Assembly (NCBI GenBank): GCA_947175605.1
Contig: CAMWNH010000005.1
Location: 1 to 64,000 of the forward strand
Source of the DNA: an uncultured Porphyromonadaceae bacterium
GTDB taxonomy: Bacteria > Bacteroidota > Bacteroidia > Bacteroidales > Muribaculaceae
DNA length: 64,000 bases
Reading direction: 5' to 3'
The notes under the pieces were generated by a model that was given only the letters and a program-made list of their open reading frames with translations, was not told where the DNA came from and ran no database searches. Each line of letters begins with the position of its first letter. The stretch's first letter is position 1. Below, piece by piece: positions 32,963 to 36,734 of the stretch. Both the position numbers and the translations under genes were made by a program.

Positions 32963-32970
32963 TAACTTTG
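32963..32970 (+). promoter_or_regulatory. -7 box of the lysis-like cassette
   Basis: TAACTTTG followed by C, 23 bases before the amidase ATG, matches the TAnnTTTG consensus. A TTG at 32936-32938 would be the weak -33 element, with a 24-base gap. Confidence 0.45.
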
Positions 32971-32993: not shown

Positions 32994-33398
32994 ATGAGAA
33001 AAATCACAGAAATCATCATTCACTGCACGGCGACTCCGGCCGGCAGAGACGTCACTGCAAAGGATGTGACGGCATGGCACCGCGAACGCGGATTCAGGAC
33101 AATAGGCTATCACTACCTCGTCGGGCTAAGAGGGAATGTGGAAAAGGGACGTCCGGAACACGAAACAGGAGCCCATTGCAAGGGGCATAATGCTGGCTCG
33201 ATCGGAGTTGCGTACGTCGGGGGCCTGAACGCGGCAGGGCAGCCGGCGGACACCCGCACCGAAACACAGAAGATGGCCCTGAAACGACTTGTAGCCGATC
33301 TGCGGCAACGCTATCCGGGAGCAAGCGTGCATGGACACAGGGAGTTTGCAGCGAAGGCTTGCCCTTGTTTTGATGCGGGAAAGGAGTACGGGCAATGA
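32994..33398 (+). CDS. N-acetylmuramoyl-L-alanine amidase (T7-lysozyme/PGRP type)
   Basis: The 134-residue protein is a zinc amidase that would cut between muramic acid and the first peptide residue of peptidoglycan. The zinc and catalytic residues are visible as IIIHCTATPAG (first histidine), FRTIGYHYLVG (tyrosine, histidine) and VHGHREFAAKACPCFD (C-terminal histidine and the lysine-cysteine region). There is no signal peptide, as in phage endolysins that depend on a holin or spanin. It overlaps the spanin-like gene by four bases. Confidence 0.88.
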   Translation: MRKITEIIIHCTATPAGRDVTAKDVTAWHRERGFRTIGYHYLVGLRGNVEKGRPEHETGAHCKGHNAGSIGVAYVGGLNAAGQPADTRTETQKMALKRLVADLRQRYPGASVHGHREFAAKACPCFDAGKEYGQ

Positions 33399-33829
33399 AA
33401 CATGCAATATTTGCAGCAATCCTGATTCTGATATTGACGGGATGCCGCAGCGCGAAAGAGGCACGGACAAGCGAGGAACTCCAAGCTACCGAGGAAGTGA
33501 CTGCGGGTTGCAGGATCGAGATTGTGCGGGACGAGCTTCACAGTTCGCTCGGGCGGATGGAGATTGAGCTGGACAGTGTGATGATATGCGGAGCGGATGG
33601 CACCAAACTGGAGGCGCAGAGAGCGCGCATCGTGGCACGGAGCAAGCGGAAAAGTCTCGTAACGGAGGCGGTGGTGAGCGAGGACAGCGTGTGGAGTATA
33701 AGCACAAGCCACGAAATAAAAGAGAACATTGAAAAACGAGATCGCCGGAAGAATCCGTGGCTCAGCATAATTCTGACGGTAGCTATTGCCGCTTTAGTTG
33801 GGTGGATAATATGGAGGAATCGAACTTGA
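33395..33829 (+). CDS. Spanin-like lipoprotein with C-terminal membrane span
   Basis: The 144-residue protein has a lipoprotein signal (MKHAIFAAILILILTGC), a charged, helical central section (about residues 20-115), and a C-terminal membrane span (WLSIILTVAIAALVGWIIW). An outer-membrane lipid anchor plus an inner-membrane tail in one chain is the layout of unimolecular spanins, which fuse the two membranes at the end of phage lysis. The overlap with an amidase without signal peptide is consistent. Small lipoproteins with a tail anchor can also have other roles, and there is no prophage nearby, so the spanin name is inference. Confidence 0.55.
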   Translation: MKHAIFAAILILILTGCRSAKEARTSEELQATEEVTAGCRIEIVRDELHSSLGRMEIELDSVMICGADGTKLEAQRARIVARSKRKSLVTEAVVSEDSVWSISTSHEIKENIEKRDRRKNPWLSIILTVAIAALVGWIIWRNRT

Positions 33830-33983: not shown

Positions 33984-33991
33984 TATCTTTG
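33984..33991 (+). promoter_or_regulatory. -7 box upstream of the lipoprotein gene
   Basis: TATCTTTG, 21 bases before the ATG at 34013, matches the -7 consensus. A TTG at 33958-33960 is a possible but weak -33 element. Confidence 0.45.
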
Positions 33992-34012: not shown

Positions 34013-34753
34013 ATGAAAGCTTATATGAATAAACTGACTATACCTTTCCTTTTTCTTGCCTGTCTGTTTATGGCAGCTTGCAGCAATGATGAACCGGAGA
34101 TGCCTTCGGAGGCTATTGCCTTAAATATGATGAGCGGGGACAGCAATACGACTATCGGTGGGTCGGACGTTTACATCAATGCTTCCAACAATTTCACAAG
34201 CTCCTATTGCGGCATCGCTGATCTGGGAAAGAAGGGCGGCGCGAACAAGAGCCCCAATCTGACGCAGATAGCACAGGAGGCGGCGGTGATACCCGGAAAT
34301 TATTACCAGATAACGCTCGCGAGAGACATCCGCACCGTGGCCGGGGAGCGAGCCTACCCTATAGACGCTTCTTTCTATAATGTGTACGTTGAATCGTGGA
34401 TCTACGATAAGGACAATGCCATCGAGGGTGCGAGAATCCGTTATGCGGAGTGCTATCCCGAGCCAAAGGGCCTCCCGGAGTGGGACGCCCGTATAGACGG
34501 GAATATGAAATTTGATTTCGATAACAGTGAGGTGTATACGTATACTTACACGTTCTCCAAGGGCAGCTGCATCGAAAAGGGATATACTTACTTCACCAAC
34601 GGCTATGCCAATCTGACGGAGGCGCTGAATTTTGAAATAAACGGAAACGTTATCAAGGTTTCGTACCGCAGGGATCTGAGTAGCTCCAAGCCTGATGTAG
34701 AGCTTTTCGTGCGAAACGGCAGTACATATACACGTGTGTATTTGAATTTCTGA
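34013..34753 (+). CDS. Surface lipoprotein, DUF5036-like
   Basis: The product (246 residues from this ATG, or 242 from the ATG at 34025) has a lipoprotein signal ending in LFMAACS. The body is beta-rich, with DVYINASNNF, a repeated aromatic pattern YTYTYTFSKGSC, and an ending in NGSTYTRVYLNF. It resembles the DUF5036-type lipoproteins of Bacteroides as I remember them. Its role is unknown, and it stands alone. Confidence 0.6.
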   Translation: MKAYMNKLTIPFLFLACLFMAACSNDEPEMPSEAIALNMMSGDSNTTIGGSDVYINASNNFTSSYCGIADLGKKGGANKSPNLTQIAQEAAVIPGNYYQITLARDIRTVAGERAYPIDASFYNVYVESWIYDKDNAIEGARIRYAECYPEPKGLPEWDARIDGNMKFDFDNSEVYTYTYTFSKGSCIEKGYTYFTNGYANLTEALNFEINGNVIKVSYRRDLSSSKPDVELFVRNGSTYTRVYLNF

Positions 34754-36419: not shown

Positions 36420-36734
36420 TTACAATAAGGCTGCTTTATTACGGATGGTGTTCAGCAATTTCATGAAAGATGCATCCGACTTCGCACGCTGCATGTTATA
36501 ATCGCTCTGCAAGTTAAGCAATAAATCAGCCGGAATATCAATAGCGGCCTCGACCAGCAGAGCTATTTCAGTATTAACCGCCCGTTTGCCCTTTATAATC
36601 TCATTTAATATAGATCGCGAGATGCCTATGCTCCGAGCAAGCCGGGACTGAGTAATACCCCTTGCCTCCAGCTCATCCTTAATCAACTCGCCTGGGTGTG
36701 TGGGCTCGAAAGGCGTAAGGTTGTTCGCTATCAT
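36420..36734 (-). CDS. HigA-family antitoxin-like regulator (orphan)
   Basis: The 104-residue protein has the HigA signature: HPGELIKDELEARGITQSRL, the helix-turn-helix ISRSILNEIIKGKRAVN, and a C-terminal LLLNLQSDYNMQRA as in antitoxins of type II systems. The usual HigB toxin would be just upstream on the minus strand, but only about 130 bases separate it from secA, with no such ORF. It may therefore be an orphan regulator of its own promoter or of other genes. Confidence 0.85.
   Translation of the reverse strand: MIANNLTPFEPTHPGELIKDELEARGITQSRLARSIGISRSILNEIIKGKRAVNTEIALLVEAAIDIPADLLLNLQSDYNMQRAKSDASFMKLLNTIRNKAALL

Follow-up and report, generated by a model that had tools for sequence, protein, structure and literature searches.

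A chromosomal amidase-lipoprotein gene pair of Bacteroidales as the probable endolysin and unimolecular spanin of a cell-owned lysis system

Two overlapping genes on a Bacteroidales chromosome, one for an amidase and one for a small lipoprotein, are probably the endolysin and the unimolecular spanin (u-spanin) of a phage-type lysis system that belongs to the cell, is inherited vertically and has its holin gene elsewhere in the chromosome. The pair lies in a stretch of 64,000 nucleotides, here called the window (Table 1). A sequence-only reading of the window had described both genes, the missing signal peptide of the amidase and the four-base ATGA overlap between the frames, and all of these were recovered as described. 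It had left the choice between a domesticated lysis system and the last remnant of a phage.

Table 1. Features of the window around the amidase-lipoprotein pair
Feature	Position	Strand	Description
Promoter-like site TAACTTTG	32963..32970	+	fits the Bacteroidales -7 consensus TAnnTTTG; 23 nt 5' of the amidase start
Amidase gene	32994..33398	+	ATG 32994 to stop 33398, 134 aa; residues H10, Y39, H115, K121, C123
Stop/start overlap ATGA	33395..33398	+	4 bases; couples amidase and lipoprotein
Unimolecular-spanin-like lipoprotein gene	33395..33829	+	ATG 33395, stop 33829, 144 aa; lipobox, C-terminal membrane helix
Second promoter-like site TATCTTTG	33984..33991	+	5' of the DUF5036 lipoprotein gene
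DUF5036 lipoprotein gene	34013..34753	+	directly 3' of the pair
25-base sequence ACGTGCCGAAGGCACGTCCCTACAA	34797..34821		possible REP-like repeat
Small HTH_3 regulator gene	36420..36734	-	PF01381; HigA-type-antitoxin-like

The overlapping gene pair

The amidase begins with MRKITEIIIHC and has no signal peptide. It matched Amidase_2 (PF01510, E = 1e-16), the PHROG lysis amidase phrog_822 (E = 3e-58) and T7 lysozyme (E = 6e-30); its AmpD-like match was weak, the best matches being T7 lysozyme and phage lysis families. Residues H10, H115 and C123 together with Y39 and K121 align with the zinc ligands and the catalytic tyrosine and lysine of T7 lysozyme, and they are invariant in 14 chromosomal copies. 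Judged by these alignments, the protein is an Amidase_2 enzyme of the T7 lysozyme type with a complete set of catalytic residues. Comparisons with congeners gave dN/dS values of 0.08-0.27, and the gene is under purifying selection.

The lipoprotein carries the lipobox LTGC with Cys17, and a cysteine at the matching position is invariant in 17 homologues of the genus. A hydrophobic membrane helix at about residues 121-143 was indicated by both an AlphaFold2 model and a rule-based scan, and the ectodomain contains no other span. The u-spanin layout suggested earlier, a lipobox plus a C-terminal membrane span, is therefore present. The AlphaFold2 model (mean pLDDT 64) consists of a signal helix, a long beta hairpin (53-66/77-90) with a pLDDT of about 60-67, i.e. 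low confidence, and the C-terminal helix; comparison of this model with viral structures by Foldseek gave no significant match. Two cysteines, C39 and C65, are found in the ectodomain of the window protein, their number varying among the other homologues. Protein-family searches returned no convincing match, and direct searches with the sequence in 60 relatives and in phage records were empty because the sequence diverges too fast. Homologues in relatives were recovered via their position after the amidase. The dN/dS values between congeners were 0.30-0.75; in other words, the gene evolves fast and yet its frame stays open.

The architecture of u-spanins was expressed as a fixed rule: a lipobox, a polar middle and a C-terminal span in a protein of 110-200 aa. 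A single one of the 56 open reading frames of the window qualified. In related loci 16 of 335 size-matched frames did so, and all 16 lay directly 3' of an amidase. The spanin-like architecture is not a chance pattern. It is by this architecture, not by a sequence match, that we call the lipoprotein a putative unimolecular spanin.

Most chromosomal copies in the genus retain the ATGA overlap. Since TAnnTTTG sites precede the amidase and again the DUF5036 gene, the pair probably has its own transcript and would form a separate transcription unit. The same promoter-like core was found 5' of many homologous amidase and holin genes, and in the whole window 25 such sites were seen where 17.0 are expected, which is suggestive only. 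The pair is flanked by nhaA on the opposite strand and by the DUF5036 lipoprotein gene, which has a promoter-like site of its own (TATCTTTG); genes for a TetR regulator, an SDR reductase and secA follow. The neighbours bear out the earlier remark that phage genes are not near: none flank the pair in the window, and no tRNA was found there either. A genome-wide search for two phage families, PF10145, the tape-measure family used by the prophages of this genus, and PF04984 (tail sheath), gave no match to either.

Two minor features were noted downstream. The HTH_3 regulator had no apparent adjacent toxin gene. The 25-base sequence ACGTGCCGAAGGCACGTCCCTACAA occurs repeatedly in two related genomes, and a contig of a sister genome, G033, breaks near the matching position.

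Distribution and inheritance in the genus

The amidase was present in 26 of 49 genomes of the genus, and a profile search recovered the same 26. Exactly one chromosomal copy, with cellular neighbours, was found in 23 of the 49. In 21 of these 23 copies the amidase is followed by a diverged lipoprotein with a C-terminal span, usually with the four-base overlap; in two genus genomes the amidase stands without an adjacent lipoprotein. Ten chromosomal copies face ligA in convergent orientation; in eight, a divergent tRNA-Met(CAT) lies just 5' of the amidase. Because two genomes (G014 and G070) have both neighbours, 16 species can be assigned to one ancestral locus. On the ligA tree the pair requires 3 changes.

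The other kind of amidase in the genus belongs to intact prophages, where it lies between genes of tail or baseplate type and a tape measure gene of about 1500 aa. The pair is thus not always part of an intact prophage: prophage copies exist, but they group elsewhere in the amidase tree. With viral and prophage copies included, the main group had 24 copies of phage type, all in one supported clade; for the 23 chromosomal copies, the hypothesis of a single clade was not rejected (AU p 0.66). As judged from trees and loci, the history of the pair in the genus is one of vertical inheritance under selection rather than that of a fading remnant.

This bears on the possibility that the two lysis genes are the functionless remainder of a decaying prophage. 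The homologues are indeed phage lysis genes, and some copies in the genus still reside in prophages. The tRNA beside eight copies could mark a former attachment site as well, though the amidase is on the 5' side of the tRNA. Against this, the overlapping frames are intact in 21 species and share loci, the amidase shows the dN/dS values and invariant catalytic residues given above, and the chromosomal copies stand apart from the phage copies in the tree. Moreover, genomes lacking the pair showed no empty tRNA-ligA site, and an origin from a tRNA attachment site was rejected. A remnant is highly unlikely, and the last-remnant half of the earlier reading is not supported. Its other half, a domesticated lysis system, gains support because the pair has been kept intact and in register at common chromosomal positions in many species, with an amidase under purifying selection.

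Conflict with phages was also considered: the host might encode early lysis as a form of abortive infection, or the amidase might interfere with phages. T7 lysozyme is also an inhibitor of T7 RNA polymerase. Genes of phage derivation, kept widely and patchily in species that also carry prophages, would suit such a role. However, the loci examined had no evident defence islands nearby and the fast change of the lipoprotein suggests that it has no specific partner, which makes phage conflict distinctly improbable.

The pattern of absences calls for some care. In the sister species G033 the pair is seemingly absent, but the contig ends exactly at the expected place, so this is no demonstrated loss; as the genomes are draft assemblies, some other absences may be gaps too. 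In one free tree Salinivirgaceae amidases fell beside the window copy, but on a long branch, and kinship was not accepted.

A putative holin at a separate locus

The genome of the window (G000) contains one free-standing gene for a Phage_holin_4-like protein of 139 aa on contig 36 (C36). The protein had no direct Pfam match; it matched a profile built from three congeners (G003, G023 and G065) with E = 1e-21, and as a putative holin it is assigned through this genus profile only. The profile search found a single homologue per genome in 30 genomes of the genus, the copy of G072 being in two fragments on two contigs. At the loci examined these genes are free-standing, with cellular neighbours and no phage genes. 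Ten of 13 genus members match Phage_holin_4_1 (PF05105) at E <= 0.1, and the curated cut-off of that family is passed by the proteins of G065 and of G357 and G411. The holin is rare in the remaining order.

In G003 and G023 a small membrane protein, the holin-like product, directly follows the pair in the order amidase-lipoprotein-holin, in cellular surroundings, and in G065 the holin homologue is about 2 kb away from the pair. The sequence-only reading had taken the pair for a minimal lysis module. The genes are of lysis type, but the two-gene form is not what we found: they are rather two of the three genes of a split module, whose holin-like gene lies at a different locus in this genome but within the cassette in relatives. 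A holin was present in 22 of the 23 pair-bearing genomes (Fisher p 4e-6, kinship uncorrected). Because both traits track the tree, which leaves about 3 independent contrasts, this co-occurrence is not used as proof. One pair-bearing genome had no detected holin, and five to eight holin-bearing genomes had no detected chromosomal pair.

Proposed mechanism and comparison with known systems

In phage lysis the holin opens the inner membrane, the amidase cuts the murein and the spanin removes the barrier of the outer membrane. The products described here probably divide the work in the same way. With the genes expressed, the holin would open the inner membrane, and the amidase, until then cytoplasmic, could reach and cut the peptidoglycan. 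The lipid of the lipoprotein would hold it in the outer membrane, and its C-terminal helix would fix it in the inner one; by disrupting or fusing both membranes the lipoprotein would cause the cell to burst. Proteins, vesicles and DNA would be released from the cytoplasm and the population would benefit, as in type 10 secretion systems. The lytic activity, the joint action with a holin from a separate locus and release as the benefit are what we infer from the nature of the genes.

Type 10 secretion systems are holin/endolysin/spanin clusters outside phages, which act by lysis in Yersinia and Serratia (PMC10847048). ChiWXYZ of Serratia marcescens and the lysis cassette of Yersinia entomophaga are cell-encoded, phage-derived and located outside prophages (PMC10847048), and the occurrence of holin, endolysin and spanin-like genes outside a prophage is likewise true of this genome, with the holin identified via the genus profile, and of the cassettes of its relatives. 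In contrast to those systems, the host here belongs to the Bacteroidales, the predicted spanin is unimolecular instead of consisting of separate i- and o-spanins, and the endolysin is an amidase of T7 type. The holin is often encoded at a separate locus, and a linked cargo or regulator was not seen; the promoter-like motifs were the sole regulatory features noted, and these are of a general kind. No system of this type was found for Bacteroidota in the open-licence papers searched.

The u-spanin gp11 of phage T1 shares with the lipoprotein an N-terminal lipobox, a C-terminal span, a single ectodomain and a gene adjacent to the endolysin (PMC6139136). It differs in that the window protein has no sequence match to it, is encoded on the chromosome and contains two ectodomain cysteines. 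An ectodomain cysteine is absent from all 58 of the 58 u-spanins surveyed, a regularity and not a definition (PMC6139136). The ectodomain of gp11 is mainly beta, whereas that of the window lipoprotein offers only the low-confidence hairpin. T7 lysozyme and the Amidase_2 endolysins of phages belong to the same family as the amidase and have the same catalytic residues; the gene described here is chromosomal, vertically inherited and coupled to a spanin-like gene. Release by means of a cellular holin is known from the UviB holin and amidase associated with Bcn5 bacteriocins in clostridia and from TcdE-type holins (PMC9527704). Those systems share a cellular holin and amidase with the present one but, unlike it, are Gram-positive and spanin-free and have their cargo encoded adjacently.

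Related genes beyond the genus

In the family, 145 of 297 genomes contained the amidase (E <= 1e-45). Forty loci were read; four were clearly prophage and most others had cellular surroundings. A lipoprotein with a span follows the amidase in the genera g193 and g184 and in part of g192 and g206. Genomes of g193 (G357, G411 and G433) possess an overlapping holin-amidase-lipoprotein cassette beside cellular genes, e.g. rpoC and a YitT-like gene, the gene 5' of the amidase encoding a Phage_holin_4_1 protein (25 bits, cut-off 22.2). The same overlapping order is found elsewhere in the Bacteroidales in prophage L227, directly before the tape measure, and shows the source of such cassettes. Bacteroidales prophage cassettes of this kind have tail genes on one side and the tape measure on the other, unlike the window pair, which has no phage context. 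The family-wide amidase tree was poorly resolved and some cellular copies fell among phage copies, so a single family-wide origin is not claimed.

No lipoprotein with a span adjoined the amidase in the loci read from g186, g187, g194 and g201. There (e.g. L318, L320, L321 and L326) the amidase is kept as a chromosomal gene alone, and G429 and G462 have a lone amidase at a common position. Since it is kept without an adjacent lipoprotein in two genomes of the genus and in several genera, the amidase may also have another job. A rival reading is that it does ordinary murein work, muropeptide recycling or remodelling during growth, in the cytoplasm or periplasm, and that the lipoprotein is an unrelated envelope protein. 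Such solitary genes, the missing export signal and the weak AmpD-like match would be in keeping with that. Yet T7 lysozyme and phage lysis families match best, ahead of AmpD, the spanin-like architecture was found only after this amidase, and tight cassettes with a holin exist; murein housekeeping is accordingly unlikely. Like phage defence and a prophage remnant, it is less well supported than a lysis system owned by the cell.

Extended to the whole family, the cell-owned lysis system takes a broader form, in which we see an even balance of chances. Gut Bacteroidales of this family would have their own holin-amidase-u-spanin system, inherited vertically over many genera, by which some cells undergo programmed lysis to release proteins, enzymes or vesicles. 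It would be similar to type 10 secretion, with a new type of spanin and a split-locus form. If this is true, abundant gut commensals hold a built-in lysis programme that has been kept over long evolutionary time, Bacteroidota have a way to let out DNA, vesicles and cytoplasmic products that are large or folded, and secretion of the type 10 kind extends past the enterobacteria in which it has been described to date. Deletion of three small genes would then put altruistic lysis in the gut to a direct test.

Holin-amidase cassettes were also encountered at six loci (L181, L182, L184, L187, L190 and L200) of rumen Salinivirgaceae and a Bacteroidetes MAG, with no phage genes evident nearby. The cassette of L187 includes a lipoprotein-like open reading frame and the genome RGIG9951 has two holin-amidase cassettes. 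Several of these cassettes are preceded by a conserved protein of 98 aa without a Pfam match, which might be a cargo. In prophage-like loci of Bacteroidaceae (L202, L208 and L210) a related holin and a spanin-like lipoprotein flank a different endolysin, by its sequence of the phage-lysozyme type; here the enzyme of the lysis cassette has been swapped.
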